A DNA stretch of 40,640 nucleotides from assembly GCA_017470945.1 (NCBI GenBank), contig JAFUXH010000151.1, forward strand, positions 1 to 40,640, read 5' to 3'. This stretch comes from Clostridia bacterium (GTDB taxonomy: Bacteria > Bacillota > Clostridia > Christensenellales > Aristaeellaceae). Numbering within the stretch: the first letter of the stretch is position 1; each line of letters begins with the position of its first letter. A model generated the notes under the pieces. The model ran no database searches, was not told where the DNA came from, and was given only the letters and a program-made list of their open reading frames with translations. Below, one piece after another: positions 4,216 through 33,724 of this stretch. The translations under genes were made by a program, and so were the position numbers.

Positions 4216-6642
4216 TTATGCCAGGCGCAGGGTGATTGCCTGGCCTGTATAGCAAACCTCCGCTGCGTTGCCGCCTGCCAGGCGGATGCGCAGCGTTTGT
4301 TTTTCCGCCATGCCGGGCCAGCTGCCCTCCCGGGCGGATATCGTCAGCTCCCGGTCCCGATCGCGCCAGGTGAAGGTCACGCGGGCGCACTGGCCCGCTT
4401 CATAGCCATAGCCGTCCCCCGCGTCGTCATACCAGGTGAAGCGGCCGTCGGCGCCGGGGTACACCGTCACGTCGAGGGGCGGGTGGGGGATTTCCGTGAC
4501 GAATTGCTGCACCGGCCCCTGCAGCAGGATGCCGCCCCCGCGGATGAACCAGGGCACCCTGTCCAGCGGGGCGTGCAGGGTGATCGTTTGGCCGCCGGGA
4601 TAGCGCGCGCCTGTTTCGCCGTCGTACCAATCCACGCCGGCGGGCAAATACACGCGTTCCGTGTCGTCCACGGGCTCGATCCGCTTTCCCGCCGGCAGGT
4701 ATTCCATGGGGTGGGTGACGGGCTTAACCAGCAGATCGCCCAGCAGCATTTCATCGTCGACCTGCCGCAGCGCGGCATCCTGTGGGAACATCAGCGCGGG
4801 CACGCGCACCGGCGGCAGCCCCCGATCGGCATAGCGGGCGGCCAGGGAATACAGATAGGGTACCAGCCGGCTGCGCAGGCGAATGATTTTTTCCAGGGCG
4901 TCATACCAGGGGCCGCCCTTTTCCCCGAACTGCCAGATTTCCCGGGGCGTGCCGGTGCCGTGGGCCCGCATCATGGGCAGGAAGGCGGCGTACTGCATCC
5001 AGCGCACGAACAATTCCCGGTAGCCGGGGTCCTGTACGCCGCCGTTGAATTCCCCGGTTCCAAACCAGGCCCCGCCGAAATCCATGGGGAAGAAGCCGCC
5101 CGCGTCGGTGGTCCACCAGGCTTCGCCGGTGGCCATGAAATTCAGGCCCTCCGGCACCTGCCGGCGCAGCACCTCCCAGGAGGAGGAAATATCCCCGGAC
5201 CAGGTCACGGTGGCGTAGCGGTGCTGGCCGGCCCAGCTGGAGCGGGTCAGGTTCAGCACCCGTTTTTCATCGGTGGTTTCCCGCTGGCCCCGGTAGATGC
5301 CCATGGCGTGATACAGGCTGTAGAGGGTGATTTTGCCGGGGTCCAGGTATTTTTTGGCTTCGGCGGTGTTCAAGCGCACGCGCTCGAAGGGCTCCGGCTT
5401 GATGGATCCGTGCCAATCCGATTCAAAGGGCTCGGAGCAATCGCACCACCAGGCGTCGACGCCGTGGCGGAACAGGCCCTCGTTGGCCTGCTTCCAGTAC
5501 AGGGTCCGGGCCTTTTCGTCAAAGGCGTTGTAGATCGTGCGGTTGCCCAGCATGCAATCGTTTTGTAGCATCTCGGCCCGATTCTCGTTTTGATCGCCCT
5601 GCATGGAGGGCCAAACGGATATCATCAGCTTCGCGCCCAGGGCGTGCAGGGCGTCCGTCAGGCCCCGGGGATCGGGGAAGCGGGTTTCGTCGAACACCTT
5701 ATAGCCCCACTGCCCCTCCGGCCAGGATTGCCAATCCTCTACGATCACGTCCAGCGGTACCTGGCGGCTGCGGTAGTTTTTCACCACGTCCAGCAATTCC
5801 TGGGCGTCCTTGTAGCGCTCCTTGGATTGCACGTAGCCGAAGGCGTACTTGGGCAGCAGCGGGGCGTGGCCCGTCAGATCGGCGTATTGGCGGCACACGT
5901 TCTCGTACCCGCCGCTGAAGAAGTAATAGTCCATTTCATCGGCGCAGTCTGCCCACAGGTAGGAGCCGTTGGCGTCGTCGTGGAACGCCGTCAGGCAGCC
6001 CACGTCGAACAGGATGCCCCAGCCCTTGGTGCTCAGCAGCACCGGCACCACGGCCTTCATGTTGTGCTGGTACAGGTCCCGGCTTTTGCCCCGCAGGTTG
6101 CCGTAGCCCTCCTCGTGGGAGCCCAGGCCGTACAGCCCCTCGTTTTCGTCAAAGGCAAACGACAGCTTCCAGGCGTAGGCCTTCCGATCCTCGATGGCAT
6201 CGTAATCCTCGCTGGAGGCCCGCACCCCATCGACGCTCTGGGCGTAGGTGATCTGGGCGTCCCGCCGGAAGTGGTTCACCATCACGGGCTTTTCCTCCAT
6301 CACGCAGGGGCGTTTTTCATCCTCCCGCAGGATCACGTCGCCCGCCCGGGTCAGGAAGGTGATGGCGCCGGTCGTTTGATGGATCCGCAGCAGCACGCCG
6401 CCGCAGTCGGCGCAGAACGCGTCCGCCGTTTCGGTAACGGCGCAGGCGCCCGCCTCCCGGCTGACGATCACGTCGCCCCCGTCGGGCAGGAAATGATCCC
6501 GCAACGTGCGGGTTATGCGCACTGCGCCGCAGGCAAGGGCGCTGATTCGCAAAAGCTGGGTGCGATTGGGCAAAAACGCGGGCCCGGGCAGGGGCAGCGC
6601 AAATACCGCCGTGCCGGGGGAAGGGATGGAACAGGTCATCAT
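4216..6642 (-). CDS. Glycoside hydrolase family 31 enzyme, alpha-xylosidase/alpha-glucosidase type
   Basis: An 808-residue cytoplasmic enzyme (no signal peptide) with the GH31 plan: N-terminal beta-sandwich (about 1-250), TIM barrel (about 260-590), C-terminal beta domains. The nucleophile is Asp401 in WWCDCSEP and the acid/base Asp484 in TWSGD. LPKYAFGYVQSKERY and the VEDWQSW segment are typical of the XylS-like alpha-xylosidase branch, so alpha-xylosyl groups of xyloglucan or alpha-glucosides are the likely substrates; sequence alone does not separate them. The start at 6642 (or the adjacent ATG at 6639) follows GAAAGGAG. The gene follows FucU in the same direction, but a terminator-like hairpin whose T-tract touches this ribosome binding site lies between them, so it may be expressed by read-through. 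Confidence 0.9.
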   Translation of the reverse strand: MMTCSIPSPGTAVFALPLPGPAFLPNRTQLLRISALACGAVRITRTLRDHFLPDGGDVIVSREAGACAVTETADAFCADCGGVLLRIHQTTGAITFLTRAGDVILREDEKRPCVMEEKPVMVNHFRRDAQITYAQSVDGVRASSEDYDAIEDRKAYAWKLSFAFDENEGLYGLGSHEEGYGNLRGKSRDLYQHNMKAVVPVLLSTKGWGILFDVGCLTAFHDDANGSYLWADCADEMDYYFFSGGYENVCRQYADLTGHAPLLPKYAFGYVQSKERYKDAQELLDVVKNYRSRQVPLDVIVEDWQSWPEGQWGYKVFDETRFPDPRGLTDALHALGAKLMISVWPSMQGDQNENRAEMLQNDCMLGNRTIYNAFDEKARTLYWKQANEGLFRHGVDAWWCDCSEPFESDWHGSIKPEPFERVRLNTAEAKKYLDPGKITLYSLYHAMGIYRGQRETTDEKRVLNLTRSSWAGQHRYATVTWSGDISSSWEVLRRQVPEGLNFMATGEAWWTTDAGGFFPMDFGGAWFGTGEFNGGVQDPGYRELFVRWMQYAAFLPMMRAHGTGTPREIWQFGEKGGPWYDALEKIIRLRSRLVPYLYSLAARYADRGLPPVRVPALMFPQDAALRQVDDEMLLGDLLVKPVTHPMEYLPAGKRIEPVDDTERVYLPAGVDWYDGETGARYPGGQTITLHAPLDRVPWFIRGGGILLQGPVQQFVTEIPHPPLDVTVYPGADGRFTWYDDAGDGYGYEAGQCARVTFTWRDRDRELTISAREGSWPGMAEKQTLRIRLAGGNAAEVCYTGQAITLRLA

Positions 6643-6701: not shown

Positions 6702-7130
6702 TTATTTTACGACGCCTTTTTTCAAAATGACGTTGGCGTACAGCGCCCCTTCGCTGGTGGCGACGCAGGCGTAGCATTTCGCCCCCCGGGGGTAGAATTC
6801 CGCTTTCTGCACCGCCTCCTCCCGCAGGCCGTCGGCCTCGTATTTTTGGCCGATCCTGCGGTACTCTTCCCAGATTTCGGGCTTGTAGGGATCGTTGGGC
6901 AGCACGGCCATCAGCACGGTGGGGTGCTCCACGTACGGGTCCAGGGGGAAGAAGCGCAAAATGGCGTCCAGGATCTCCGGGATACCGTGCCCGTCCATGC
7001 GCACGCATTTTTCCGGGCAGCCGAATTTCGGGTAATTCCCGTCGCACAGCAGCAATTCATCCCCATGGCCCATTTCCATCAGGATTTTCATCAGCTCGGG
7101 GGTCAGGATGGCAGGGATTCCTTTCAGCAT
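6702..7130 (-). CDS. fucU: RbsD/FucU family sugar mutarotase, L-fucose mutarotase-like
   Basis: A 142-residue cytoplasmic protein that interconverts sugar anomers. It aligns by eye with E. coli FucU from end to end: MLKGIPAILTPELMKILMEMGHGDE at the start has the same spacing, with the catalytic His22 of MGHGDE, and EFYPRGAKCYACVATSEGALYANVIL near the C-terminus carries the family Y-x-N motif. The ATG at 7130 is preferred to a GTG at 7139: it matches the FucU start and follows GAGGTG at the right distance, and that binding site overlaps the stop codon of the aldo/keto reductase (translational coupling). As the last gene of the LacI-led catabolic operon it should speed anomer exchange of the imported or released aldose; RbsD-like ribose or galactose specificity remains possible. 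Confidence 0.85.
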   Translation of the reverse strand: MLKGIPAILTPELMKILMEMGHGDELLLCDGNYPKFGCPEKCVRMDGHGIPEILDAILRFFPLDPYVEHPTVLMAVLPNDPYKPEIWEEYRRIGQKYEADGLREEAVQKAEFYPRGAKCYACVATSEGALYANVILKKGVVK

Positions 7131-7140
7131 CTGCGTCACC

Positions 7141-8145
7141 TCATTTCACGATGGTTCCGTCCTCATCCCACAGGTCGTGCCAAGAATCGGCCCCCGGCCA
7201 CAGGAATACCTGGCCCTTGATCAGGCGGCAGTTCTGATCCACGCTTTTCATGGCTTCCATTTCCGCTTTGGACAGGGGATCCTCCGTCACGCAGCGCAGG
7301 TTATCCTCGTAATGGTGCAGGGAGAAGGGGATGGGCACCTGGCCCCGCTGCGCCGCCCATTTCAGGCATACGGCCGCCGGCGATATCCCATGGGCCCGGG
7401 CGATTTGAACCACCTGAGGCGCCTGGGTATCGATCAGGTCCTCCGGGGTGGTGTCCCGCTCCGGCCGGTTGGGGCTGCCGATGGGGCAATAGCCAATGGG
7501 CTGAATGCCGTGGGCCACGGCGTAATCAAACAGCGCTGGCTGCTGGAAGCAGGGGTGCAGTTCGATTTCCAGCACTGTGGGTTGAATGCGGCACAGGGGC
7601 AGCACCGCCTGCAGCTTGGGCACGGTCATGTTGCTCATGCCCAGGTTGCGCACCAGGCCCATATCGTGCAGCCGCTCCATTTGCCGCCAGGTCTGCATGA
7701 ATTCCTCCACGGAGAAGGGCTTGCTGTCGGGGTTGCGGCTGTCCACATCGCAAAAAGGCGCGTGATAATTGGGAAAGGGCCAGTGAACGAAATAGAAATC
7801 CAGCTGATCCAGGTGCAGATCCCGCAAGGTTTTGGCGCAGGAAAGCAGCACGTCCCCCCGGCCGTGCATATCATTCCACACCTTGGAGGCCACCAGCACC
7901 TCGTCCCGACGGACAGCGCCTTCCCGGAACGCGCGGTCGAATTCCCGGCCGATCAGATCCTCGTTGCCGTACACGGAGGCGCAGTCGAACAGGCGGTAGC
8001 CCGCCCGGATGGCCCCGGCCACGGCGGCGCTCACCTGCTGGGGCGAGAAATGATCGCTGCCGAAGGTGCCCAAACCGATGCAGGGGATTTTTTCCCCGGT
8101 GGAAAGCGTGCGCGTGGGCACGGATTTGGGATCAATGGCACTCAT
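7141..8145 (-). CDS. Aldo/keto reductase, aldose reductase-like
   Basis: A 334-residue cytoplasmic oxidoreductase of the AKR (beta/alpha)8 family. The catalytic tetrad is complete: Asp54 and Tyr59 in FDCASVYGNED, Lys88 in ASKVW, His121 in VHWPF. Aldose and xylose reductases of this family reduce open-chain aldoses to alditols. The segment that normally reads I-P-K-S and binds the 2'-phosphate of NADPH is IPFS here (Phe at 274), so NADH may be used. It lies between a GatD-like dehydrogenase and a FucU-like mutarotase, which suggests aldose reduction or reduction of an aldehyde product such as lactaldehyde. The ATG at 8145 follows AAGAAGG. The stop overlaps the fucU ribosome binding site. Confidence 0.85.
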   Translation of the reverse strand: MSAIDPKSVPTRTLSTGEKIPCIGLGTFGSDHFSPQQVSAAVAGAIRAGYRLFDCASVYGNEDLIGREFDRAFREGAVRRDEVLVASKVWNDMHGRGDVLLSCAKTLRDLHLDQLDFYFVHWPFPNYHAPFCDVDSRNPDSKPFSVEEFMQTWRQMERLHDMGLVRNLGMSNMTVPKLQAVLPLCRIQPTVLEIELHPCFQQPALFDYAVAHGIQPIGYCPIGSPNRPERDTTPEDLIDTQAPQVVQIARAHGISPAAVCLKWAAQRGQVPIPFSLHHYEDNLRCVTEDPLSKAEMEAMKSVDQNCRLIKGQVFLWPGADSWHDLWDEDGTIVK

Positions 8146-8167
8146 GGTTTCGCCTTCTTTCTCTTGT

Positions 8168-9214
8168 TTATGCGTTGATCAGCATGACTTTTCCGTGCAC
8201 CTGGCTGGGATCGCGGTACAGGGCGAAGGCTTCCGCGGCATCCCGGAGCGGGAACGAACGGAAAATGATGGAGGGGTCGAAGCGCAGTTCCCCGCTGGCG
8301 AAGCACTGGGCCGTTAAATCCCATTCCCGGCCCGGGAAGGGGGCCGAATAGCTCATCCAGCTGCCGGTGAGGGTGAATTCCTTGCGGTTCATATTTTCCC
8401 ATTCGGCGGGGGAAAAGGTCACGTCCGTATGGGGCGTGCCGATAAAGCACAGGCGGGCCTTGTTCCCCGCCAATTGGAAGGCCATTTTCATGGTGACGGG
8501 GCTGCCCGCCGCTTCAAAAACGGCGTCGAAGCCCCGGCCGTTGGTCAGCGCCTTGGCCTGCTCCATGAAATCCTTGTTTCGGGTGTTGATGGTTTCATGG
8601 GCGCCCATGCGGCGGGCCAGGGCCAGGCGGCTGTTGTCCAAATCAAAGGCGGTGATGCGGTGGGCCCCCAGGATGCGGGCCCATTGCAGGGTGAAGATGC
8701 CGATGGTGCCAAGCCCCAGCACCGCCACGCTGCCGCCCCCCCGGAAGCCGGCGTGCAGCAGCCCGTGCAGCGCCACGGCGGAGGGCTCGAACATGGCCGC
8801 CTGCTCATAGGGCACGGCGGGGTCGTAGGGGATGGCGTTGATTTCCGGCATCACCACGTATTCGGCGAAGCTGCCCTGCTGACGGCTGCCGATAAAGGAA
8901 TAATGCTTGCACAGGGAAAAATCGCCCCGCTGGCAATCCGCGCACTGCATGCAGGGGATCAGCGGCGCGCCGCTGACGGTGTCGCCCACCCGGACCCTGG
9001 TCACGTTTTCGCCTACCTCCACCACGTCGCCGCTGAACTCGTGGCCCAGCACGATGGGATAGAAATGCGCGCCGTGATGCAGCACCCGGGGCACGTCGCT
9101 GCCGCAGATGCCCGTGGCCCGCACACGCACCTTCACCTGGCCCTTGCCGCATACCGGCGTTTCCCAATCGGTGTAGCGAATATCCTCATTCCCAAATAAT
9201 ACGGCTGCCTTCAT
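8168..9214 (-). CDS. Zinc-dependent medium-chain dehydrogenase, GatD-like (galactitol-1-phosphate 5-dehydrogenase family)
   Basis: A 348-residue MDR alcohol dehydrogenase. Catalytic zinc ligands are Cys37 (GICGSD), His58 and Glu59 (LGHEF); structural zinc cysteines are at 88, 91, 94 and 102. The Rossmann motif is VLGLGTIG. It resembles E. coli GatD by eye in CGSDVPRVLHHGAHFYPIVL and in GSWMSYSAPFPGREWD, stretches that ordinary sorbitol dehydrogenases do not share. GatD oxidises galactitol-1-phosphate to tagatose-6-phosphate with NAD+; the substrate here could be that compound or a free alditol. The start overlaps the kinase stop in an ATGA and follows GGGAGGG. No galactitol PTS is seen, so any polyol phosphate would have to come from the FGGY kinase. 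Confidence 0.85.
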   Translation of the reverse strand: MKAAVLFGNEDIRYTDWETPVCGKGQVKVRVRATGICGSDVPRVLHHGAHFYPIVLGHEFSGDVVEVGENVTRVRVGDTVSGAPLIPCMQCADCQRGDFSLCKHYSFIGSRQQGSFAEYVVMPEINAIPYDPAVPYEQAAMFEPSAVALHGLLHAGFRGGGSVAVLGLGTIGIFTLQWARILGAHRITAFDLDNSRLALARRMGAHETINTRNKDFMEQAKALTNGRGFDAVFEAAGSPVTMKMAFQLAGNKARLCFIGTPHTDVTFSPAEWENMNRKEFTLTGSWMSYSAPFPGREWDLTAQCFASGELRFDPSIIFRSFPLRDAAEAFALYRDPSQVHGKVMLINA

Positions 9215-10692
9215 GCTTCATCCCTCCCCGCCATCATGGGTGCCAGGCGCGCATACAGCGCCCGGTACTTCTGATAGCCCGTTTCATAGATCGCCTGATT
9301 TTCTGCTTGCGGCGCGTGCTGCCGTTGCACGTGCACCGTGCGCCGGACCGCGTCCTCAAAATCCTTGTAAATGCCGGCGGCCACCCCGGCCAGGATCGCC
9401 GCGCCCAGGCCCGTGGCGGTGTCGCTGGAGGGGACGTCGATGGGCTTGCCCGTCACGTCGCTTTTGATCTGGGTCCAGATCAGGCTGTTGGCGCTGCCGC
9501 CCATGGCGCGCATAACGTTCACCTGCCCGCCGGCTTCCGCGGCGGCTTCAATGTTGTGGCGCAGGGCGTAGGCCGTTCCCTCCATTACCGCGCGGATCAT
9601 GTGCGCCCGGGTGTGGGCGTAGGTCAGGCCGAAAAATACGCCTTTGGCGTCGGGGTCCCACAAGGGGCTGCGCTCCCCCGCCAGATAGGGCAGAAACAGC
9701 AGCCCGTCGCTGCCGGGCGGCACGGTTTCGGCCAGAGCGCTCATATCGGCAAAGGAAAGCTCCGGGCAAATCTGCTGGCGCAGCCATTTGAGGGCCCCGC
9801 CGCCGCCGGTGGTGCCCCCCTGCAGCAGCCACCGCCCCGGCGCCACGTGGTACCCCAGGATCAGCCGGGGATCGCCCACGCAATGATCGACGCACAGGCT
9901 CATGCCGCCGGATTGGCCGCCCTGCTCCTGGGTTTGGCCGGGATCGATCACGCCGACGCCCAGGGTGGCGCAGGCGGCGTCCAGCCCGCCGGCGACCACG
10001 GGGGTGCCGGGCAGGAGCCCCGTTTGCCGGGCCGCCTGCTCCGTTACGGAACCGGCGATGGCGTGGCAGGGCAGGATATCCGGGAACAGGGAGGGGCGCA
10101 CGCCTGTTTTTTCCAAAGCGGCCCGATCCCACTGCCCGGCGCGCATGCTGAAAAAGTGCAGGCCGTAGCCCTGGGAAAGATCCTGGGTCGCCTTTCCCGT
10201 CAGCCGCAGCACGATCAGGCTGTTGGATTGCAGCATCCACCGGGCATTTTCATATACCGCCGGCCAGTGCCGCTTGTACCACAGAATTTTGGGCAGCGAA
10301 TAGCCGGGCTGCAGGGGATTCATATCGACACGGAACCAATCCTCCTCCGGCATCAGGCGGCGCATATCGTCGCATTCCTGCCGGGCGCGCCGGTCGGTCC
10401 AGATGGGGGTGGGGGCCAGCACGTTCCCCTGCGCGTCCACCGCCACGGCGGACCAGCTTTGCCCGTCCACGCCCACGCAGGCGATATCCCGGGGATCGAC
10501 CGCCGCCGTCAATTGCTTCACCGCCCGGCAGGCCGCCCGCCACCAATCCTCCGGCTCCTGCTGGGCCCAGCCGGGATGGGGATAATCGGTGTCGTAGGGG
10601 ACGCTTTCGGCGGCGACCACCCGGCCGTCGGGGTCAAACACGGCGGCCTTGCAGGCGGAGGTGCCGATATCGATGCTCAAAATCCTGTTCAT
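9211..10692 (-). CDS. FGGY-family carbohydrate kinase, xylulokinase-like
   Basis: A 493-residue ATP-dependent sugar kinase with two actin-like domains. The N-terminal phosphate loop is SIDIGTSACKAAVFD, the sugar-binding region has GVDGQSWSAVAVD and IWTDRRA, and Asp238 in AGGLDAACATLG is the catalytic base; GGSANS and GLGAAILAG lie in the C-terminal domain. It is closest to xylulokinase, but the FGGY family also phosphorylates L-fuculose, ribulose, erythritol and other polyols. In this operon the product should feed the class II aldolase, so a ketohexose or hexitol is more likely than xylulose. The ATG at 10692 is chosen because it forms an ATGA overlap with the aldolase stop; a further ATGA overlap joins its stop to the dehydrogenase. 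Confidence 0.88.
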   Translation of the reverse strand: MNRILSIDIGTSACKAAVFDPDGRVVAAESVPYDTDYPHPGWAQQEPEDWWRAACRAVKQLTAAVDPRDIACVGVDGQSWSAVAVDAQGNVLAPTPIWTDRRARQECDDMRRLMPEEDWFRVDMNPLQPGYSLPKILWYKRHWPAVYENARWMLQSNSLIVLRLTGKATQDLSQGYGLHFFSMRAGQWDRAALEKTGVRPSLFPDILPCHAIAGSVTEQAARQTGLLPGTPVVAGGLDAACATLGVGVIDPGQTQEQGGQSGGMSLCVDHCVGDPRLILGYHVAPGRWLLQGGTTGGGGALKWLRQQICPELSFADMSALAETVPPGSDGLLFLPYLAGERSPLWDPDAKGVFFGLTYAHTRAHMIRAVMEGTAYALRHNIEAAAEAGGQVNVMRAMGGSANSLIWTQIKSDVTGKPIDVPSSDTATGLGAAILAGVAAGIYKDFEDAVRRTVHVQRQHAPQAENQAIYETGYQKYRALYARLAPMMAGRDEA

Positions 10693-11534
10693 GCGTCCGC
10701 CTTTCCGTCGCTGCCGCACACCTGGATCAGGTGGAGCACCCTTTCAGTGACCGCCGCGCGGCCCGCCGCCAGGTATTTCTTGGGGTCGAAGGCGTTGGGG
10801 TCGTCCTGCAGCGCCTTTCGCACCGCCTGGGTGAAAGCGATGCGCAGGTCGGTGGCGTAATTCACTTTGCAAATGCCGCGGGCGACGCATTGGCGCACGG
10901 TTTCATCCGGTACGCCGCTGGTGCCGTGCAGCACCAGGGGCGCCTCCGTGCGGCCGCAAATCTCGCTGAGCCGCGTTTCATCCAGCTTGGGCGTGGCCTT
11001 ATAAACGCCGTGGGCGGTGCCGATGGCCGGGGCGAAGCTGAAGATGCCGGTGCGGTGGATGAATTGCGCCGCCTGCTCCGGATCGGTGTACTGGATGCCG
11101 GCGGCGTGGGTATCCTCCTTGCCGCCCACGGTGCCCAATTCCGCCTCCACCGGCACGTCGCCCGCCATGTCCACCACCCGGCGGGTCAGGGCGACGTTTT
11201 CTTTAAAAGGCAGAAGGGAGCCGTCGATCATCAGGGAGGTATAGCCCGCCTGCTTGCAGCGCAGCGCCAATTCAAAGCTGTTGCCATGATCCAGGTGCAG
11301 CGCCACGGGCACGCGGGTTTTCTCCGCCAGCGCTTTGACCGCGCCGGCAAAGGCTTCCGGCGGCGCGTATTTCAGCGTGCCGGGGGTGGTTTGGATCATG
11401 ACCGGGGACCGCAGGGTTTCCGCCGCCTGCAAAACGGCCTGGATCATTTCCAGGTTTTCCACGTTGAACGCGCCGATGGCATAGCGCCCCAGGCGGGCCT
11501 GGGTCAGCATATCTCTGGATGAAACGAAGCTCAT
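10689..11534 (-). CDS. Class II ketose-bisphosphate aldolase, GatY/KbaY-like (tagatose-1,6-bisphosphate type)
   Basis: A 281-residue zinc-dependent aldolase. It keeps the GatY plan in the same register: HLDHG gives Asp82 and the zinc ligand His83, IGTAHG gives His175 and LVLHG gives His203; VEAELGTVGGKED is the family glycine loop. GatY/KbaY cleaves tagatose-1,6-bisphosphate to dihydroxyacetone phosphate and glyceraldehyde-3-phosphate, but fructose-1,6-bisphosphate or another ketose phosphate cannot be excluded. The ATG at 11534 follows GAGGAG and matches the GatY start; an upstream ATG at 11564 lies inside the GH36 gene. It comes 13 bases after GH36, and its stop overlaps the FGGY kinase start, so supply of the kinase product to this enzyme is likely. 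Confidence 0.88.
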   Translation of the reverse strand: MSFVSSRDMLTQARLGRYAIGAFNVENLEMIQAVLQAAETLRSPVMIQTTPGTLKYAPPEAFAGAVKALAEKTRVPVALHLDHGNSFELALRCKQAGYTSLMIDGSLLPFKENVALTRRVVDMAGDVPVEAELGTVGGKEDTHAAGIQYTDPEQAAQFIHRTGIFSFAPAIGTAHGVYKATPKLDETRLSEICGRTEAPLVLHGTSGVPDETVRQCVARGICKVNYATDLRIAFTQAVRKALQDDPNAFDPKKYLAAGRAAVTERVLHLIQVCGSDGKADA

Positions 11535-11547
11535 GCGTTTTTCTCCT

Positions 11548-13638
11548 CTATTTGGTTGATTCATCCCGCCCGGTTTTGGCCAGGTGGATGGCGACGGCCT
11601 CGAAATTGGCCTGGGGGATCACGGTCAGACAGTTCTCCTGCAGGGAAACGGGGTCGTTTTCGCTGCACAGAACGCCTGCGATGCCGAGCCTCGCGGGAAC
11701 GGGCAGCGAAATGCGGGGCGGCAGCGGGCCGCCGAAAGTGTGAATAACGACCAGCGCTTCGCCGCCATCGACGGCGCGAACCACCGCCTGCCAGCCCTCG
11801 GGGTGCAGCCATCTGGGGCTGACCGAGCCGTAAAAGCGGCTGACGCCATCCCGGATGATGAGACCCACGCGGCGGTAGAAGGCGATGCCCTCCTCCACCT
11901 TGCGCCACTGCGCTTCCGACAGGGAAAAAATATCGCCGGACAGGCACATAACGCCAAGCAGCGTGTTGACGAGGGAATAGTTGATGCGCCTGAGATCATC
12001 CTTTTGCCGCAGCACGGCCCAGATTTGGGATTGCCCGGCCAGGATCATGCGCTGGAGCGCCGCCGCGATGATGGGGATGTGGGCGCACTCGTGGGCGTCG
12101 GAGAAGGAGGCCATATCGCTCAGCGCCATCATGGAGGGCTCCAGACGGTGGCCGCCGGAGGAGCAATTTTCAATGACCAGATCGGGGATCTCCTGCCGGA
12201 GCATGCGGAAGAACCGCTGGGCCCCCAGCATGTTTTGCCTTAGGCCCTCGCCCAGGCTTTCACAGCCGTCGCAGCCCACGCCGATGGTGTCGTTGTAATC
12301 GATCTTGACGTAGCCGAAATGACACTTTTTCAAAAGCCCCGCCACCCGTTGGCGCAGGTAGGCCTGGTTTTCCTCCGTGCGCAGATCCAGGAACCGGCGG
12401 TTGTCGGTGTCGATGACGACGCCGTTGCGGTGCAGCAGGCGATCCTCCTGCCGGAAAATATCCGCCTGGCGGGCGCAGGTTTCCGGCTCGAACCACAGGC
12501 CCGGGATCATGCCGGCGTCCCGGATGCGCTGGGCGGTATATGCAAGGCCCCGGGGGAAGAGGCCCCGCTCGTCGGGCAGCCAATCCCCGCCGCAGGCGCT
12601 CCAATCCCGGTCCGACGCGCCGTACCACCCGGCGTCGATCACCAGGTAATCCACGCCGCGGCCCTGCAGGGCCTGGGCGATGCGCATCAGGTTATCGTGG
12701 GAGGGCTTGCCCCAGGTGGTGCAGTATTCATTGAAGAGCACGGGCAGCGGGCGATCCTTGCCAACCCAATTTTCCCGCTGCACGGTCAACAGCATTTGGC
12801 TGGCCTCGTCCACCCCGCCCCGGGCGACGGTGAGATATGCCGGAGGCGAAAGGAAGGAGGCGCCGTTTGGCAATTCCTTGGCCCAGTGGCCGTATTCCGC
12901 GTCGGCCAGGCCGCCCGTCAGGCTCAGGCCGCCGTCCCGCCGCCTGAATTCCATCTGCCAGGAGGAGGGAATGGCCAATTGCGCCGCCCAGGTGACGCCC
13001 CGGCGGGTATCCTCCACCGCCGCGAAGGGGAAATACCCCCGCACCGGCATGGAGCCCAGCTGACCGAATTTTTCCACCCGAACGCCCACGGGGATCCACG
13101 CGGGCTCCAGGTTCAATTCCTCCGCCCCCTGGCTCAGCAGGCGGCCCTCCTCGCTCCAGGCGCTTTTCACCCGGTGCAGCGTCAGGCCCCCGGGGGCGTC
13201 GTCAGGCGCGAAGGGCGTCAGCATGCCGATGCTGAAGCTGGACAGCATGTCCAGCGTCACCGGCCGGCCGGTTTCGTTGATCACCTCGGCGTCCAGGATC
13301 ACCGCCTGCAAGCCGGCGTGCCACCGCAGCCGATGGCGCACCCGGATGCCCCGCTGATCCCGCAATTCCGTCAGGATCGCATCGCCCTCCCGGCGCTGAT
13401 CCGACAGGCGCAGGCCGTTGGTCGACGGGGTGTCGGCCAGGGTGGCGCCGTTGGCGAAGCCGTGGGGCAGGGCGTCGCCCCGCAGGTGCAATTGCACCAG
13501 GCTTTCCACGGCGCATTTCTTTTCTGCAAGGTCCGCTTCCATGTCGGCCGGGATCAGCGTCAGCCCGGTGTGGCCCGCCTCATCCTGCCGGAACAGGACG
13601 GCGAACTCGCCCAGGATAAAACGGCTCAGGGTGTTCAT
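11548..13638 (-). CDS. Glycoside hydrolase family 36, probable alpha-galactosidase
   Basis: A 696-residue cytoplasmic enzyme with an N-terminal beta-supersandwich (about 1-290), a TIM barrel (about 300-600) and a C-terminal beta domain. The GH36 marks are DYLVIDAGWYG, the nucleophile Asp447 in YVKIDYND, and the ENCSSGG...SFSDAHE region with Asp514 as likely acid/base. It would remove alpha-galactose from raffinose-type, galactomannan or other oligosaccharides; GH36 also contains N-acetylgalactosaminidases. The start at 13638 is chosen because it forms an ATGA overlap with the LacI stop and the family N-terminus follows; the upstream open frame is antisense-like. As the only glycosidase of the LacI-to-FucU operon it suggests that galactose may be the sugar this operon processes. 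Confidence 0.85.
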   Translation of the reverse strand: MNTLSRFILGEFAVLFRQDEAGHTGLTLIPADMEADLAEKKCAVESLVQLHLRGDALPHGFANGATLADTPSTNGLRLSDQRREGDAILTELRDQRGIRVRHRLRWHAGLQAVILDAEVINETGRPVTLDMLSSFSIGMLTPFAPDDAPGGLTLHRVKSAWSEEGRLLSQGAEELNLEPAWIPVGVRVEKFGQLGSMPVRGYFPFAAVEDTRRGVTWAAQLAIPSSWQMEFRRRDGGLSLTGGLADAEYGHWAKELPNGASFLSPPAYLTVARGGVDEASQMLLTVQRENWVGKDRPLPVLFNEYCTTWGKPSHDNLMRIAQALQGRGVDYLVIDAGWYGASDRDWSACGGDWLPDERGLFPRGLAYTAQRIRDAGMIPGLWFEPETCARQADIFRQEDRLLHRNGVVIDTDNRRFLDLRTEENQAYLRQRVAGLLKKCHFGYVKIDYNDTIGVGCDGCESLGEGLRQNMLGAQRFFRMLRQEIPDLVIENCSSGGHRLEPSMMALSDMASFSDAHECAHIPIIAAALQRMILAGQSQIWAVLRQKDDLRRINYSLVNTLLGVMCLSGDIFSLSEAQWRKVEEGIAFYRRVGLIIRDGVSRFYGSVSPRWLHPEGWQAVVRAVDGGEALVVIHTFGGPLPPRISLPVPARLGIAGVLCSENDPVSLQENCLTVIPQANFEAVAIHLAKTGRDESTK

Positions 13639-14672
13639 GCGAATTCCTTCCCGGCCTCGGCCTGCTTGGGGGGATGCACGGATGTGCCCCGGGTCAATTG
13701 CGTGTTCAGGATCACCGTTCGGTGGGACAGGCGGTTTTCCTCGTTCAGCAGCGCCAGGATCAAATTGGCGCACTCCTGGCCGATGCTGTGCTGGGGCTGA
13801 TGGATCAGCGTCAGATGGGGGAAAATATTGCCGAACATTTCCAATTTATCAAAGCCGATCACCGACAGATCCTCCGGCACCCGGATGCCCATATTTTGCA
13901 GGGCCAGCATGCCGCCGATGGTCATTTCGAAATTGGTGATGAACAGGGCGGTGGGGGGATCCGGCTGCTGCATCAATTGCTGTACCGCCTGATAGCCGCC
14001 GTTCATGGTGTAATTGGCGTAGCGGATATCCTCCTGGGAGGGGGTGATGCCCACCGCCCGCAGGGAATTCAAGTAGCCCTGCAGCCGGCAGTTGGTGGTA
14101 TACAGGTCGGGTTCGCCCAGGATCAGGCCGATGTGGCGGTGCCCGGCGTTCAGCAATTCCTGGATGGCCTTTTCGGATGCCCGCACGTTGTCGATCACCA
14201 CGGCGCTCACCTGCCCATCCAGGGCGGGGATCAGCCGGTCCACCAATACCACGGGGATGCCGGCGGCCATGGCGGATTTCAGGTGGGTGCCCGTGGCGTC
14301 GGTGGGCATGTTGATCAGCCCGTCCACCTGGCGGTTCAGCAGAAAATTGACCGCTTCCTTTTCCCGCTTCGGGTCGCTGCGGCAGTCGGACACGATGACG
14401 GCGTAATTCCGCCGGCGCAGCAGATCCTCCATGGCGGAAATGATGGAGGTGATGAATGCGTTGCTCAATTCCGGGATCACCACGCCGATCACGTGGGAGC
14501 GCCGGGTTTTCAGGCTGCGGGCCACCTCGTTGGGAACGAAGTGAAGCTGCTTCACCGCGTTTTCGATCAAAATGCGGTTCTTCTCCCGCACGGTACCGCC
14601 GTTAAAATATTTGGATATGGTGGCCAGCCCCAGCCCTGTGATTTGCGATAGATCCTTCATCGTTGGCGCCAT
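13635..14672 (-). CDS. LacI-family transcriptional regulator
   Basis: A 345-residue DNA-binding repressor. Residues about 4-50 form the LacI helix-turn-helix and hinge (TMKDLSQITGLGLATISKYFNG, then VPNEVARSLKTRRSHVIGVV), and residues about 60-340 the periplasmic-binding-protein-like sensor domain with HRHIGLILG and the FDKLEMFG segment. The hinge lacks the usual A-A-R-x-L (here VARSL). The ATG at 14672 follows AGGAGGG. First gene of the operon running to fucU, with its own promoter upstream and an ATGA overlap with GH36, so it probably controls this operon in response to a sugar or sugar phosphate. Whether it also binds the GAAACGTTTC sites at GH4 and GH3 is open, since no such site lies before this gene. 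Confidence 0.92.
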   Translation of the reverse strand: MAPTMKDLSQITGLGLATISKYFNGGTVREKNRILIENAVKQLHFVPNEVARSLKTRRSHVIGVVIPELSNAFITSIISAMEDLLRRRNYAVIVSDCRSDPKREKEAVNFLLNRQVDGLINMPTDATGTHLKSAMAAGIPVVLVDRLIPALDGQVSAVVIDNVRASEKAIQELLNAGHRHIGLILGEPDLYTTNCRLQGYLNSLRAVGITPSQEDIRYANYTMNGGYQAVQQLMQQPDPPTALFITNFEMTIGGMLALQNMGIRVPEDLSVIGFDKLEMFGNIFPHLTLIHQPQHSIGQECANLILALLNEENRLSHRTVILNTQLTRGTSVHPPKQAEAGKEFA

Positions 14673-14772: not shown

Positions 14773-15594
14773 TTACACCGTATTCGGGCTGGGGGCGATT
14801 TCCGTTTCCAGGGGATCGGTGTATTCCCTGCCCTCGGCGTGAATGAAGCCCCACACCCTTTGATCCTTTTCCGGGCGGATGAAATTGCGGCCGATATCCG
14901 TCATGCGGTCAACGTCCATGAGCAGGAGCAGGTTGTTCCCGCCCTTGCAGGGGTCCCGGCGGTTGATGTGGTCCTCCGTCACGCCCATCAAATACAGGCC
15001 GTTCCGGATCTTGACGTAGACCGCCGGCTCCTCGTAAATGGGGTCGTCGATCAGCGGGGTTTCGTCCCCGTCAGGGCGGCGCAGCGCCTGGGCCCGGCAG
15101 AAATGATCCAGGTAGATGTGCACGTTCACGAAGCCGTTGTAATAGGTCCAGGCGATTTTTCTGCCCGTCAGTTCGCAGGTGAAGCAATGCCGCCGCCAGG
15201 GGAGGGGCTTGCCATCCCGCCGTACGGCGCCGAAATCATAGGTGGTTTTGGCCAATTGGGGGCGGGCGGGATACGCGCCGAACACCGTGCGCACCCGGGT
15301 CACTAGGTCGTTTTCCTCATCCACGATCAGCGTCACGCAGGCGTATTTGCCGGGACAGGGCTCCTCGTAGGCGATCAGCCGCACGGTATCCCGCATGGTC
15401 AGGCTGCCGTAACGCAGCCACAGGGGGCGCTGCTGATCATCCATGCGCAGGGCGTCCTGGCCGGTGGAGAAGGTATACAATTCCTCCTCGCCGCTGTCGT
15501 AAACGATGTGCAGGGCGGCGCCCGCCAGGCGATGATCCAGGGATTGAATGAACCGTTCGTTTCCGGTGAAATGGATGCCGTGTGCGGCGGGCAT
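14773..15594 (-). CDS. MoaF-like protein (molybdenum cofactor biosynthesis F family), paralogue 1
   Basis: A 273-residue cytoplasmic protein of the MoaF-like family; the name is historical and the function unknown. Two beta-rich halves are visible. The C-terminal half carries the block shared by all three copies in this window: YEEPAVYVKIRNGLYLMGV, then GGNNLLLLMDVDRMTDIGR; the middle has KIAWTYYNGFVNVHIYLDHF. I recall the family as calycin-like, the fold of phenolic acid decarboxylases, so binding of a small hydrophobic or aromatic ligand is a guess. The ATG at 15594 follows AGGGAGGGATC, a binding site also found before the other two copies. Last gene of the GH4-led operon, 19 bases after the NTF2-like gene. 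No molybdopterin gene is nearby. Confidence 0.7.
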   Translation of the reverse strand: MPAAHGIHFTGNERFIQSLDHRLAGAALHIVYDSGEEELYTFSTGQDALRMDDQQRPLWLRYGSLTMRDTVRLIAYEEPCPGKYACVTLIVDEENDLVTRVRTVFGAYPARPQLAKTTYDFGAVRRDGKPLPWRRHCFTCELTGRKIAWTYYNGFVNVHIYLDHFCRAQALRRPDGDETPLIDDPIYEEPAVYVKIRNGLYLMGVTEDHINRRDPCKGGNNLLLLMDVDRMTDIGRNFIRPEKDQRVWGFIHAEGREYTDPLETEIAPSPNTV

Positions 15595-15613: not shown

Positions 15614-16576
15614 TCAGCGGATTTCTTCCACAAAATTCACCTGCTGCGCCTGCTCCCAGGTCAGGGGCAGCTGATCCCAGTCGATGGTGCCCTCCAACCC
15701 GGCGTAATCGCTGATGCGGATGGAGCACAGCAGCCCGTCCTCCCCCCGCTCGTAGGCGGCGATGCCAGACATGGCGATGCGGTTCCTCTCCTCCCGGCCG
15801 GCCCGGGAAACCACGTGCACCCATTCGATCACGCAGGTGCGGCCGTCGTCGATCAGCGTTTCATACCGCATGGCTACGCAGCGTGGGATGTACTGGGCCA
15901 TGCGCCGGTATTTTTCATACACGTCCGCCCGGGTCAGCGCCGGTTCCCGGCCGGGCTCCAAGGGCTCGTAGCCGCCGAACACGCAATTGTCCGCCATGCA
16001 GGCCATGATGCGGTCCACGTCGGCGGCGGGCAGGTGGTGCAGCCCCTCGTAATATTCCCGCACCGCGCCGGTCAGCAGCCCCCCTTCGCCCTTCTCCAGA
16101 TGGGTAGAGGGAAACAGCGGGGCCCGGTACGCCTGCAGGCCGGGGATGAAGGAGCAGTGGGTGTACAGGCGCACCTCGTCCAGCAAGCCCCCGCCCCGCA
16201 GATCGGCCACCACGAAAAACGGCACCTGCCGAATGCCCTCCGCGCTTGTAAAATCCACCTGCAGCTCGGTCACGGAGCGGCCGTTGGCCCGGGTTTGGAT
16301 CACGGGGATGACGGCGGCCCGCTCCGCCTGGAAGCGGGGCAGCCATTCCCGGATGAAGCGGCGCACGCCCTGCAGCCCCTCGTAGCGCCGGAAGGGCGTG
16401 TCGACGACGCTTGGCGCGTGCCCGAATTGCTTTTCCTCCCGGAACAAGGCGCAGGCCCCTTCTTCATCCCCGGCGCAGGCGGCTCGGATCAGCCGCAGTT
16501 CGGCGTAGCTTTCATCGATCGGATGCGCGCTGCCGCGGTACAGCTCGGCCAGCACGCTTCTTTGAATGTACTTCAT
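15614..16576 (-). CDS. Tandem NTF2-like/SnoaL-like domain protein
   Basis: A 320-residue cytoplasmic protein that looks like two cone-shaped NTF2-like domains in tandem: the first around residues 20-150 (LIRAACAGDEEGACALF, then VDFTSAEGIRQVPFFVVADL), the second around 170-310 (LPAADVDRIMACMADNCVFGG, then MRYETLIDDGRTCVIEWVH). Such domains bind or transform small hydrophobic molecules (polyketides, aromatics, steroids), and many are not enzymes. No catalytic residue can be assigned. The ATG at 16576 follows GGAAGGAAG. It lies 26 bases after GH51 and 19 bases before a MoaF-like gene, so a role on a non-sugar substituent of the imported oligosaccharide is possible. Confidence 0.6.
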   Translation of the reverse strand: MKYIQRSVLAELYRGSAHPIDESYAELRLIRAACAGDEEGACALFREEKQFGHAPSVVDTPFRRYEGLQGVRRFIREWLPRFQAERAAVIPVIQTRANGRSVTELQVDFTSAEGIRQVPFFVVADLRGGGLLDEVRLYTHCSFIPGLQAYRAPLFPSTHLEKGEGGLLTGAVREYYEGLHHLPAADVDRIMACMADNCVFGGYEPLEPGREPALTRADVYEKYRRMAQYIPRCVAMRYETLIDDGRTCVIEWVHVVSRAGREERNRIAMSGIAAYERGEDGLLCSIRISDYAGLEGTIDWDQLPLTWEQAQQVNFVEEIR

Positions 16577-16602
16577 CGTTGCTTCCTTCCGCCGGGGCGC
16601 GG

Positions 16603-18204
16603 TCATTTCTGAAAGCGGAACACATTCCAGGACAGCCTGGGCAGCACGGCTTCGCACACGCCCTTGTCAAACGCGGTATCCATCACTTCCCGGGGGATCA
16701 GCACGTCCGGCCGTTCGTAGGAATTCCGGGCGTCGGGGTCGCCGCTGCTCAGGCAGGTGTGACCCAGGAACTTCCATTGCGCAAAGCCCCGCACGTCCAG
16801 GGTGAACTGCTGGGCGTCCTCCCAATCGGCGTTGAGCACGAACACCGTCAATTCATTTTCTTCCTTGTTCAGGGCGGCGGCGGCCTGGATGTAATCCACG
16901 TTTTCAAAGCCGACGTACTGGTTCATATCGTCGAGGGCGTAGCCCTCCACCTGGTACTGCTCGCACGTTACCACCGGCCTGAGCGACGTGCCGGTGGCCC
17001 AACGGATCATCTGGGTGAAGGGGTAGTATGCGGCGCCCTTCCACACGTGCTCCCGGTCGGTCATGCACAGATCGCCCAGACCGCCGGTGGCGCAGCCGAT
17101 CTTCACCCGGTCGGCGTGGCGCAGCAGCGTCAACAGCACCGTGCAGGTGCCCAGCGTGCGCAGCATTTCCCCGGAAAGCGGGGCACGGCGGCGGGTGCTC
17201 CAATCGTCGGGGTCGTGGCGCACATACGTTTGATCGGGGTCGAAGGAATAGAACGTCCAGGCGGGGGTGCGCCCGTTCATGCCCCAGTGGGCCTTGCCCG
17301 CGGGCCGGGTCATGGACCCGTATTCATCCAGCGACAGCATCATCGTTTTGCCGACCCGCAGCTTGGTTTTCACGTAGTCGCACAGGCTGATTTCCGTTTG
17401 GATGTATTGCTCGAACGCCTGGTAGCCCGCCAGCAGGGCGGCCACATTGCCCGTGGGGGCGGAGTGGTAATGGTGCATGGAAATGTAATCCACCGTTTCG
17501 TAGCAGGCTTCCAGCACCTGCCGATCCCATTCCGGATAGTGGCTCAGGAAGGGGGAGGAGGATACGCAGGCGGCGGTTTCGATGGTGGGATCGATGAATT
17601 TCATGGCCTTTGATGTCTCGTGGGCCAGCACGCCGTAGCCGGCGGGGTTCTTTTCCCAGGAGGCGATCTGCCAGGGGCCGTCCATTTCGTTGCCCAGATA
17701 CCAGGTTTTCACCTTGTAGGGGGCGGCGTGGCCGTTTTGCCTGCGCAGGTCGGACCAGTAGGTGCCCCTTTCGAAATTGGTGTATTCCACGATGTCGGCG
17801 GCGTCGCTCAGGGTGCCGGTGCCCAGGTTCACGGTGTAGAGGGCCTCGGCCCCCACCCGTTCCGCCCAGCGCAGGTATTCATCGTGGCCCACGTCGTTGG
17901 GGATAAATTGGTGCCAGGCCAGGTCCAGGCGGGTCTTTCGCTGCGCCCGGGGCCCGATGGAATCCTTCCAATTCCAGCCGGACACGAAGTTGCCGCCCGG
18001 CAGGCGCACCGAGGGTAGCCCGGCGGCGCGCAGGCCGTCCATGAAATCCCGCCGCAGGCCCAGGTCGTCCGCCGTGGGATGCTTGGGATTGTACATGCTT
18101 CCGTTGACCATGGAGCCGATGGGCTCCAGGAACGCCCCGAACAGCCGGGGGGAGATTTCGCCGATCCGGAAGGAGGGATGCAGCGTCAGCTTAGCTTTTC
18201 TCAT
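16603..18204 (-). CDS. Glycoside hydrolase family 51, probable alpha-L-arabinofuranosidase
   Basis: A 533-residue cytoplasmic enzyme. The TIM barrel carries the GH51 residues Glu173 in YLGNEMDG (acid/base) and Glu294 in LSLDEYGS (nucleophile); FGAFLEPIG and VRLPGGNFVSGWNWKDSIGP are characteristic N-terminal blocks. A beta-sandwich follows at the C-terminus (about 410-533). It should release terminal arabinofuranose from arabinoxylan, arabinan or arabinosylated xyloglucan oligosaccharides. The ATG at 18204 follows GAGG and begins right where GH51 homology starts; the open frame before it is noise. It lies 62 bases behind the divergent GH95 gene, separated by an RNA hairpin. No arabinose isomerase or ribulokinase is in the window. 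Confidence 0.92.
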   Translation of the reverse strand: MRKAKLTLHPSFRIGEISPRLFGAFLEPIGSMVNGSMYNPKHPTADDLGLRRDFMDGLRAAGLPSVRLPGGNFVSGWNWKDSIGPRAQRKTRLDLAWHQFIPNDVGHDEYLRWAERVGAEALYTVNLGTGTLSDAADIVEYTNFERGTYWSDLRRQNGHAAPYKVKTWYLGNEMDGPWQIASWEKNPAGYGVLAHETSKAMKFIDPTIETAACVSSSPFLSHYPEWDRQVLEACYETVDYISMHHYHSAPTGNVAALLAGYQAFEQYIQTEISLCDYVKTKLRVGKTMMLSLDEYGSMTRPAGKAHWGMNGRTPAWTFYSFDPDQTYVRHDPDDWSTRRRAPLSGEMLRTLGTCTVLLTLLRHADRVKIGCATGGLGDLCMTDREHVWKGAAYYPFTQMIRWATGTSLRPVVTCEQYQVEGYALDDMNQYVGFENVDYIQAAAALNKEENELTVFVLNADWEDAQQFTLDVRGFAQWKFLGHTCLSSGDPDARNSYERPDVLIPREVMDTAFDKGVCEAVLPRLSWNVFRFQK

Positions 18205-22384: not shown

Positions 22385-22412
22385 GGGGTTGGACCTCCTT
22401 TTTTATTTACGT

Positions 22413-22432
22413 CATGGCGCTTCGCGGCCATG
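22413..22432 (-). other. Small RNA hairpin ahead of the solute-binding protein gene
   Basis: CATGGC and GCCATG arms with an 8-base loop lie in the 75-base gap between the YtcP-type permease and the binding-protein start. No T-tract follows on the transcribed strand. It may mark an mRNA processing site; weak evidence. Confidence 0.35.
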
Positions 22433-22459
22433 CATCGTACGGGAAAGGGAAAACGGGGA

Positions 22460-23410: not shown

Positions 23411-23423
23411 GCTCATCCCTCCT

Positions 23424-24846: not shown

Positions 24847-27362
<2,516 letters not shown>

Positions 27363-33706: not shown

Positions 33707-33724
33707 ATCCGAAACGTTTCACAA
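33707..33724 (-). promoter_or_regulatory. LacI-type operator before GH3
   Basis: The same 18-mer as before GH4 (ATCCGAAACGTTTCACAA), core 33711-33720, lies 30 bases before the GH3 start and just downstream of the predicted transcription start, a repressing position. Confidence 0.82.

Follow-up and report, generated by a model that had tools for sequence, protein, structure and literature searches.

A seven-gene set on the minus strand

We analyzed the 40,640-nt contig JAFUXH010000151.1 (the window) from a Clostridia bacterium whose genome is labelled G000, and focused on seven minus-strand genes at 6702-14672. These encode a LacI-family regulator, a GH36-clan glycosidase, a GatY/KbaY-type aldolase, an FGGY kinase, a GatD-like dehydrogenase, an aldo-keto reductase (AKR), and a FucU/RbsD-family mutarotase (Table 1). 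On balance, we lean toward the view that this set, conserved among bacteria and linked to a shared operator core, is an operon that runs galactose through galactitol and tagatose-6-phosphate.

Window genes were called with a codon-usage gene caller (the DNA is GC-rich), and the Pfam scan covered 24 of the 29 called genes, all except those at 475-1239, 1385-2149, 2266-3171, 3191-4096, and 24432-24827. The seven core genes are intact open frames, some with starts shorter than the longest open reading frame (ORF). The preferred starts of the FGGY (10692), aldolase (11534), GH36 (13638), and LacI (14672) genes are all ATG codons that follow a purine-rich stretch, and ATGA is found at each of three overlaps (9211-9214, 10689-10692, and 13635-13638). 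An earlier first-pass annotation of this DNA had described a co-directional seven-gene set with three ATGA overlaps, and both the open frames and the Pfam domains bear this out.

Names are used here at the family level, aside from a subfamily match of the aldolase. This protein exceeds the cut-off of the broader ketose-bisphosphate aldolase subfamily (302.1 versus 215.6 bits) and falls short of the GatY subfamily (346.2 of 383) and tag_bisphos_ald (311 of 443.55) models; its top PDB match is a tagatose-bisphosphate aldolase, 1gvf. For the GatD-like protein, the proposed galactitol (or galactitol-phosphate) dehydrogenase, the top NCBIfam model is galactitol-1-phosphate 5-dehydrogenase (307 bits versus an equivalog cut-off of 550), and the top PDB match is GatD (4a2c). 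The AKR is matched best by aldehyde and aldose reductases in the PDB. The mutarotase is nearer to FucU (102.2 bits, cut-off 141) than to RbsD (35.7 bits), and the top PDB matches of its profile are FucU proteins. The helix-turn-helix domain of the LacI-family protein scored 21 bits, under its cut-off of 27.

Alignment revealed invariant residues at positions that we take to be catalytic or metal-binding. Residues D54, Y59, K88, and H121 of the AKR are invariant in an alignment of nine sequences, as are C37, H58, E59, and E143 together with C88, C91, C94, and C102 of the GatD-like protein and D82, H83, H175, and H203 of the aldolase in alignments of eight or nine sequences. Lys252 of the aldolase, also invariant in eight aligned sequences, lies in a DPK segment where 1gvf and the Thermus aldolases have DPR, so that the charge is kept.

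The FGGY kinase scored 378.6 bits against the XylB equivalog, just under the cut-off of 380.25, and the GH36 protein, whose PDB matches are alpha-galactosidases, has beta-L-arabinopyranosidase as its sole NCBIfam match (170 of 1100 bits). The latter is thus a predicted alpha-galactosidase, possibly a beta-L-arabinopyranosidase. Both scores, along with GH51 and GH3 relatives that release pentoses, would suit a pentose route in which L-arabinose, D-xylose, or D-arabinose is reduced, re-oxidized to a pentulose, and phosphorylated by a XylB-like kinase. However, such a route would not need a GatY-type aldolase or the PfkB and GatZ proteins of related loci, and the kinase has GQSW where the aligned segment of Escherichia coli XylB reads GQMH. 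QSW is kept in all seven aligned sequences that cover the segment (AQSW in L038; L036 is incomplete there; loci of relatives are labelled L0xx or L1xx) and could be the signature of a distinct specificity class among FGGY kinases. We consider the pentose route quite improbable.

Table 1. Predicted genes and operator cores of the window
Feature	Position	Strand	Basis or remark
FucU/RbsD-family mutarotase	6702..7139	-	Pfam RbsD_FucU 124.7 bits
Aldose-reductase-like AKR, proposed galactose reductase	7141..8145	-	Pfam Aldo_ket_red 164.5 bits
Zn medium-chain dehydrogenase/reductase (MDR), GatD-like	8168..9214	-	Pfam ADH_N/ADH_zinc_N
FGGY kinase, proposed D-tagatose (or galactitol) kinase	9211..10692	-	Pfam FGGY_N/C
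Class II GatY/KbaY/FBA-type aldolase	10689..11534	-	Pfam F_bP_aldolase 334 bits
GH36-clan glycosidase	11548..13638	-	Pfam Melibiase 117.7 bits
LacI-family regulator	13635..14672	-	Peripla_BP_3 112 bits
LacI-type operator core	27399..27410		Perfect GAAACGTTTCGG, 37 bp upstream of GH4 start 27362
Second operator core copy	33709..33720		28 bp upstream of GH3 start 33681
GH31 alpha-xylosidase-like	4216..6642	-	59 bp downstream of FucU
Function-unassigned protein of run	14773..15594	-	No Pfam/NCBIfam match
SnoaL-like protein	15614..16606	-	Pfam SnoaL_2 45.1 bits; also in L057
GH51-type alpha-L-arabinofuranosidase	16603..18204	-	Pfam Alpha-L-AF_C; NCBIfam ArfA 452 of 625 bits
Divergent GH95 (alpha-L-fucosidase/alpha-L-galactosidase family)	18267..20666	-	Pfam GH95_cat 166.8 bits
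ABC transporter: solute-binding-like (20756-22384) and two permeases	20756..24368	-
Feruloyl-esterase-like esterase	24847..26007	-	Pfam Esterase
GH4 alpha-galactosidase-like, first gene of run	26034..27362	-	NCBIfam alpha-galactosidase subfamily 470.7 of 486 bits
GH3 beta-xylosidase-like	31066..33681	-	Pfam GH3; top NCBIfam model Xyl3A 477 of 1250 bits
Canonical second GH95	35655..38006	+	Pfam GH95_cat 476.9 bits; far side of operator 2

Recurrence of the set and the probable exits from tagatose-6-phosphate

A genome scan with the AKR alignment detected at least 587 relatives and retained 80 loci, which, with 18 loci from the family and less four duplicates (L022, L025, L028, and L032, of L042, L047, L050, and L080, respectively), gave 94 loci. 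Genes were counted by tblastn; because the contigs of relatives are often short, presence counts are lower bounds. Loci with AKR at ≥50% and GatD at ≥45% identity were defined as AKR+GatD loci, and 34 nonredundant loci of this kind were detected besides the window (L039, with GatD at 39%, is below both thresholds). The two genes, adjacent in the window, lie on the same strand in all 34. FGGY is present in 29 of these loci, the aldolase in 23, a PfkB-family kinase in or beside the operon in 19, FucU in 14, and GatZ in 3, and the AKR, GatD, FGGY, aldolase, and GatZ genes are co-stranded wherever present. At ≥35% identity, homologues of AKR, GatD, FGGY, aldolase, and FucU were found together in 12 of the 80 scan loci and the first four only in 9; the other classes were AKR+GatD+FGGY (4), AKR+GatD (4), AKR+FucU (12), AKR+FGGY (1), and AKR alone (38). 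The set therefore recurs in many organisms and is not a chance grouping, so it came through the comparison with relatives that the first-pass annotation had put forward.

Carriers are found among Lachnospiraceae, Ruminococcaceae/Oscillospiraceae, Christensenella/Christensenellaceae, and other Clostridia, and include the cultured Blautia schinkii DSM 10518 (L052). At E 1e-60, 19 of the 100 family genomes, G000 among them, have a GatD homologue. For genome-wide searches we used 31 carrier genomes, namely G000 and 30 genomes chosen from the AKR scan (one of these, with L046, has FGGY, PfkB, and AKR in its stretch and no GatD). G000 has 8.4% contamination and is 95% complete, so gene absences in it are not certain. 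Its contig C147 (L040; 5.15 kb) is 99.92% identical to window positions 4200-9349 and is likely an assembly or strain duplicate.

GatD was detected without AKR in eight loci, in which AKR absence is weak evidence because the contigs of L023, L035, and L036 end near the operon. L029, L031, and L036 carry GatD-FGGY-aldolase sets without AKR or FucU, with PfkB in L029 and, in L031 and L036, a gene resembling NAD-glycerol-3-phosphate dehydrogenase before the aldolase; the L036 contig ends in GatD. These sets are possible operons for free galactitol or another polyol.

The accessory genes of the AKR+GatD loci support a predicted route via tagatose-6-phosphate and, with PfkB, the bisphosphate. The PfkB protein of L054, the one scanned, exceeds the cut-off of TIGR03168, the 1-phosphofructokinase (1-PFK) subfamily (307 versus 216 bits), and reaches 283 of 292 bits for the 1-PFK equivalog and 226 of 410 for LacC, which places it by sequence in the 1-PFK/LacC group. 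Both specificities yield a 1,6-bisphosphate from a ketohexose monophosphate. In L064, a GatZ/KbaZ gene separates GatD from AKR, and in L038 one adjoins GatD (PF08013, 581 and 566 bits); a GatZ homologue is present in L037. GatZ/KbaZ is reported to interconvert tagatose-6-phosphate and fructose-6-phosphate (PMC11907403). Within the stretches examined, PfkB and GatZ occur together in none of the 34 loci, and the three GatZ loci have no aldolase within the 8-19 kb examined. PfkB and GatZ thus look like alternative exits, both from tagatose-6-phosphate. The case for the galactitol/tagatose reading is strongest here, with three GatZ loci as its basis.

In the route that we propose, FucU would equilibrate the anomers of an imported or released hexose, the AKR would reduce galactose to galactitol, the GatD-like dehydrogenase would oxidize galactitol to D-tagatose, and the FGGY kinase would convert D-tagatose to D-tagatose-6-phosphate. 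A phosphofructokinase (PfkA in G000, PfkB in most relatives) would then form tagatose-1,6-bisphosphate, which the GatY-like aldolase would cleave to dihydroxyacetone phosphate (DHAP) and glyceraldehyde-3-phosphate. The first-pass annotation had placed the kinase before the dehydrogenase, with galactitol phosphate as the intermediate. Its tagatose-6-phosphate route gains support from the PfkB and GatZ genes, but phosphorylation of an alditol by the kinase is conjectural, and the order AKR, dehydrogenase, kinase, PfkB, aldolase is equally good; both orders lead to tagatose-6-phosphate.

A predicted operator core and a run with fibre-degrading enzymes

In L042, L048, and L051, palindromes that precede the aldolase or LacI gene have CGAAWCGWTTCG in common, and the candidate operator sequence for predicted LacI binding is CGAAACGTTTCG. 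An 11-base core had 46 matches in 1,287,265 bases (the window plus 80 loci), compared with 3-7 in five first-order Markov simulations; the motif was first chosen by eye from the three loci named, so the enrichment here and in the counts below is partly circular for them. Of the 19 aldolase genes scored, 11 have the core in the 200 bp upstream, versus 6 of 704 unclassified genes; two of the latter six belong to the window. By the same measure, it precedes 5 of 80 AKR genes (L060, L075, L085, L120, and L121), 4 of 22 LacI genes, 2 of 25 FucU genes, 1 of 25 FGGY genes, and 1 of 18 PfkB genes. No core was detected in this interval upstream of GatD (0/28), the other dehydrogenase described below (0/35), GH95 (0/3), GH31 (0/4), FucI (0/7), or the GH29 gene that accompanies a second AKR type (0/14).

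Within the window, the full 18-base operator pattern had no matches, whereas the shorter core had two perfect sites (Table 1), and GAAACGTTTCGG with at most one mismatch had four matches versus 0.14 expected. Both perfect sites fall within the longest ORFs of GH4 (ATG 27455) and GH3 (ATG 33867) and are upstream sites only if the shorter starts at 27362 and 33681 are right; these starts have good ribosome-binding sites (AAAGGAA upstream of ATG 27362) and agree with the family models. L051 likewise has a perfect operator, which precedes a GH29 gene by approximately 36 bp.

The first of the two window sites precedes a run of 18 consecutive minus-strand genes that begins with GH4 (27362), ends with GH31 (4216), and has intergenic distances of -4 to 112 bp. 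The core set forms the tail of this run, which includes plant-fibre enzymes. The order is GH4, feruloyl-esterase-like, a 131-aa ORF, two permeases, solute-binding-like, GH95, GH51, SnoaL-like, and a function-unassigned gene, followed by LacI, GH36, aldolase, FGGY, GatD, AKR, FucU, and GH31. We infer a single transcript for the run, and the 112-bp gap before LacI could house a promoter. The single LacI operon of the first-pass annotation stands insofar as its seven genes lie together, but the core operon appears to belong to a wider LacI-type regulon that includes fibre-degrading enzymes. A LacI-family protein would govern these enzymes and the catabolic genes jointly, so that the proposed route would be co-controlled with enzymes for removing galactose, xylose, arabinose, and feruloyl groups from the side chains of plant hemicellulose.

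Several neighboring proteins are assigned at the family level. The second half of an NCBIfam xylanase/feruloyl esterase model matches the esterase (175.6 of 1200 bits). Among the ABC transporter genes, DUF3502 scored 21.1 bits (cut-off 24.4 not reached), and BPD_transp_1 is above its cut-off in one of the two permeases. The top PDB matches of the GH31 protein are the alpha-xylosidases 7kmp, BoGH31A, and Xyl31A, and GH31 genes are also found near the core set in L047, L048, and L057. The divergent GH95 protein, which has N381 and N383, is 84% identical in L025/L047 and also clusters with that of L057.

Upstream of the run lie, on the minus strand, the GH3 gene, two MoaF-domain genes, and a MatE transporter gene, and, on the plus strand, a gene without a family match (33950-35620), the canonical GH95 gene, and a carboxylesterase gene. 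The MoaF-domain pair (29200-31021) sits between GH3 and the MatE transporter, downstream of a LacI-type operator. The MoaF-domain, SnoaL-like, and unassigned (14773-16606) proteins may handle released phenolics.

The entry sugar and comparison with known systems

Several observations weigh against the galactitol/tagatose reading. None of the seven proteins reaches an NCBIfam equivalog cut-off, the FGGY kinase is nearest to xylulokinases, and the window aldolase gene has no operator directly upstream. FucU was not seen in 20 of the 34 AKR+GatD loci, some of which are on short contigs. No PfkB homologue (E 1e-30) and no GatZ were detected in G000, so the second phosphorylation is assumed there and rests on PfkA acting on tagatose-6-phosphate. 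The general phosphofructokinase invoked by the first-pass annotation therefore suits G000, which has three PfkA genes (the PfkA search used 14 of the 31 carriers), but not most relatives: PfkB homologues at E 1e-30 are present in 25 of 31 carriers, with ≥41% identity in 20 of those. GatZ was detected genome-wide in one of 31 carriers.

A further objection concerns the Leloir pathway. The first-pass annotation had noted the absence of a phosphotransferase system (PTS), aldose isomerase, and galactokinase, and this is upheld among the 24 scanned window genes but not genome-wide. G000 has a galactokinase-like gene (172.7 bits versus a cut-off of 226.65 for TIGR00131; PF10509, 62.9 bits) at L041:8914-10206 on the minus strand of contig C51, which encodes 430 aa and lies beside a solute-binding protein gene. 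Similar sub-cut-off matches are common in carrier genomes: 28 of 31 have some galactokinase-family match and 20 have GalT, so many carriers may not need a second D-galactose route. On the other side, galactokinase exceeds its cut-off in only 7 of the 31 carriers, and no GalT or fucI was detected in G000, which supports the galactitol/tagatose reading. FucI exceeds its cut-off in 20 carriers (any match, 24).

The last objection comes from 51 further AKR loci without this GatD, given which the AKR sugar may be fucose-like. Another dehydrogenase is present in 35 of the 80 scan loci; it is a Zn-MDR protein, 26-30% identical to GatD, and often occurs with AraC, FucU, and GH29 (the latter in 14 of the 51). 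This second context lacks the FGGY/aldolase pair, and its AKR is approximately 63-70% identical to that of the window, which suggests, at the level of protein identity, that the two contexts share an aldose. Rows of MDR dehydrogenase, AKR, FucU, and GH29 occur in L068, L074, L083, L091, L105, L108, L119, and others, mostly from Eisenbergiella/Lachnospiraceae; in Treponema loci, the dehydrogenase and AKR occur but that GH29 does not.

These neighbors bear on L-fucose, which the first-pass annotation had offered as an alternative, with fucose converted via fucitol, fuculose, and fuculose-1-phosphate to DHAP and lactaldehyde. FucU and GH29/GH95 neighbors would fit, as would the 14 loci of the other AKR type with GH29 beside AKR or FucU and the FucI gene directly downstream of LacI in L109. 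The alternative is weakened by the fucI genes that 20 of the 31 carriers already have and by L-fuculose itself, which lacks the 6-hydroxyl needed by a second kinase; no 1,6-bisphosphate is possible for a 6-deoxy sugar, leaving PfkB and GatZ without a role. The aldolase, moreover, is of the bisphosphate family, from which the FucA family is distinct. We regard L-fucose as an unlikely substrate of the operon.

Under the galactitol/tagatose reading, the entry sugar would be D- and/or L-galactose. Were it D-galactose only, GH4 and GH36 would release the sugar, and the operon would replace an incomplete Leloir pathway. The GH4 alpha-galactosidase-like gene heads the run, GH36 and LacI share 4 bp within the operon, a GH4 gene over the alpha-galactosidase cut-off adjoins GatD in L102, and G000 has no GalT match; the low number of carriers with galactokinase over its cut-off points the same way. 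Against this, FucU is of a fucose-type mutarotase family, whereas D-galactose mutarotase belongs to another, and GalT is found in 20 of 31 carriers. GH36 homologues are present in 0 of 38 AKR+GatD flanks (duplicates counted), compared with GH95 (L047 and L057), GH29 (L051 and L066), or FucI (L054, L056, and L109) in 7 of 34. A single-copy galactosidase family might escape our neighbor-family count, which took the first 25 of 89 families among 87 neighbor ORFs of ≥370 aa from 30 loci. Restriction to D-galactose is possible, although we would not presume it.

Galactitol is a meso compound, so D- and L-galactose are both reduced to it. L-Galactose, absent from the first-pass annotation, has the configuration of L-fucose and yields the same meso-galactitol on reduction, and it is therefore compatible with the tagatose-phosphate enzymes as well as with the FucU/GH95/GH29 context. 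It would be freed by GH95/GH29-type enzymes, reduced to galactitol, and re-oxidized at the other end to D-tagatose; D-galactose could pass through the same intermediate of the same operon. FucU accompanies AKR and GatD in 14 of 34 loci and AKR without this GatD in 12 of 51, compared with 0 of 8 loci that have GatD but no AKR (Fisher p 0.037, indicative only because related loci are not independent and some contigs are cut). GH95 in the window and the GH95, GH29, and FucI neighbors listed above, including the GH29 gene of L051 with its perfect operator, agree with this account, but such neighbors occur in 7 of 34 loci only, and the three with FucI point to fucose.

The regulon also bears on the source glycan. 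According to one study, corn glucuronoarabinoxylan side chains carry alpha-L-galactose and alpha-xylose, and their breakdown needs GH31, GH95, GH43/GH51, beta-xylosidase, and some alpha-D-galactosidase (PMC7176698). A GH95 enzyme of B. ovatus is reported to release exclusively L-galactose from corn xylan, with trace fucosidase activity (PMC4491172). The GH31, GH95, GH51, GH3, and feruloyl-esterase-like genes of the predicted regulon resemble this set (PMC7176698, PMC4491172). GH95 specificity, on the other hand, is unreadable from sequence. The residues at the Thr/His marker, considered as a test of L-galactose versus L-fucose, are Gln379 and Thr372 in the two window proteins; the second ranks 7kmq first in the PDB, then 2rdy, and only then the alpha-L-galactosidase 4ufc. 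We take 7kmq to be the Xanthomonas enzyme XacAfc95. XacAfc95 is reported to be a fucosidase despite Thr at the proposed L-galactose site (PMC8245568), and on this ground we no longer treat the disputed marker as decisive.

The solved GH31 relatives include xyloglucan-type alpha-xylosidases, among them 2xvg, presumably CjXyl31A, and these and 7kmq raised fucosylated xyloglucan as a target glycan. CjXyl31A is reported to prefer xyloglucan. We hold this glycan less likely: among the 24 window genes scanned, no beta-galactosidase, which xyloglucan would call for, was seen, but an arabinofuranosidase gene and genes resembling those of a beta-xylosidase and a feruloyl esterase were. We entertain L-galactose tentatively. 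It is likewise a tentative notion that gut or rumen bacteria erase the handedness of the L-galactose of cereal glucuronoarabinoxylan by this means; if so, an L-sugar would join ordinary D-sugar metabolism with no need for an isomerase, kinase, or aldolase dedicated to L-sugars.

If correct, the galactitol/tagatose reading would provide several Clostridia with a bacterial counterpart of the yeast/fungal redox galactose route and with galactose use independent of the Leloir pathway. The use of L-galactose, a sugar of corn and other cereal fibre, by some fibre-degrading Clostridia might be explained in this way as well; to our knowledge, few catabolic routes for L-galactose have been described. 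The set additionally offers candidate enzymes for galactitol and tagatose production and a regulon with a defined predicted operator. We found no account of such a bacterial operon in the open-access literature searched (subscription papers were mostly outside its scope), which covers yeast/fungal oxidoreductive pathways, engineered yeast, E. coli tagatose/galactitol work, and Luteolibacter L-galactose oxidation.

One of the closest known systems is the galactitol pathway of the enteric gat operon, with a PTS (GatABC), GatD, GatY, and tagatose-6-phosphate. The window shares the GatD-type dehydrogenase, the GatY-type aldolase, and the predicted tagatose-6-phosphate intermediate. In contrast to gat, no PTS was seen among the scanned genes, free aldose would enter via a reductase, the FGGY kinase would provide the phosphate, and FucU and fibre-degrading enzymes are part of the run. 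Yeasts and fungi reportedly reduce galactose to galactitol and then re-oxidize it (PMC12930983, PMC11497787). The route proposed here would instead use a bacterial operon with the GatD, FGGY, and GatY families and phosphorylated tagatose. The later steps of the fungal route also differ. The aldolase of the window also matches E. coli YdjI (PDB 6ofu). The E. coli ydj cluster presumably encodes an AKR, an MDR dehydrogenase, a sugar kinase, and a KbaY-like aldolase, a similar gene set, with a kinase of probable PfkB type there rather than FGGY as here.

Three other systems share parts of the proposed route. FucI/FucK clusters with FucU serve the L-fucose pathway (PMC6894278); the window has FucU and an FGGY kinase in common with them, but two oxidoreductases would replace the isomerase, and the aldolase is of the bisphosphate type. 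In Luteolibacter LG18, L-galactose is oxidized by a sugar dehydrogenase (PMC12632266), so the possible food sugar is the same, whereas we propose an aldehyde-reducing start. Agrobacterium and Sinorhizobium have a non-PTS galactitol pathway with a GatZ-like C4 epimerase (cited in PMC11907403). That pathway likewise leads from galactitol to tagatose-6-phosphate, and its GatZ exit has a counterpart in L037, L038, and L064; here, a reductase would stand in front, an aldose would be the food, and most relatives would exit via PfkB and the aldolase.

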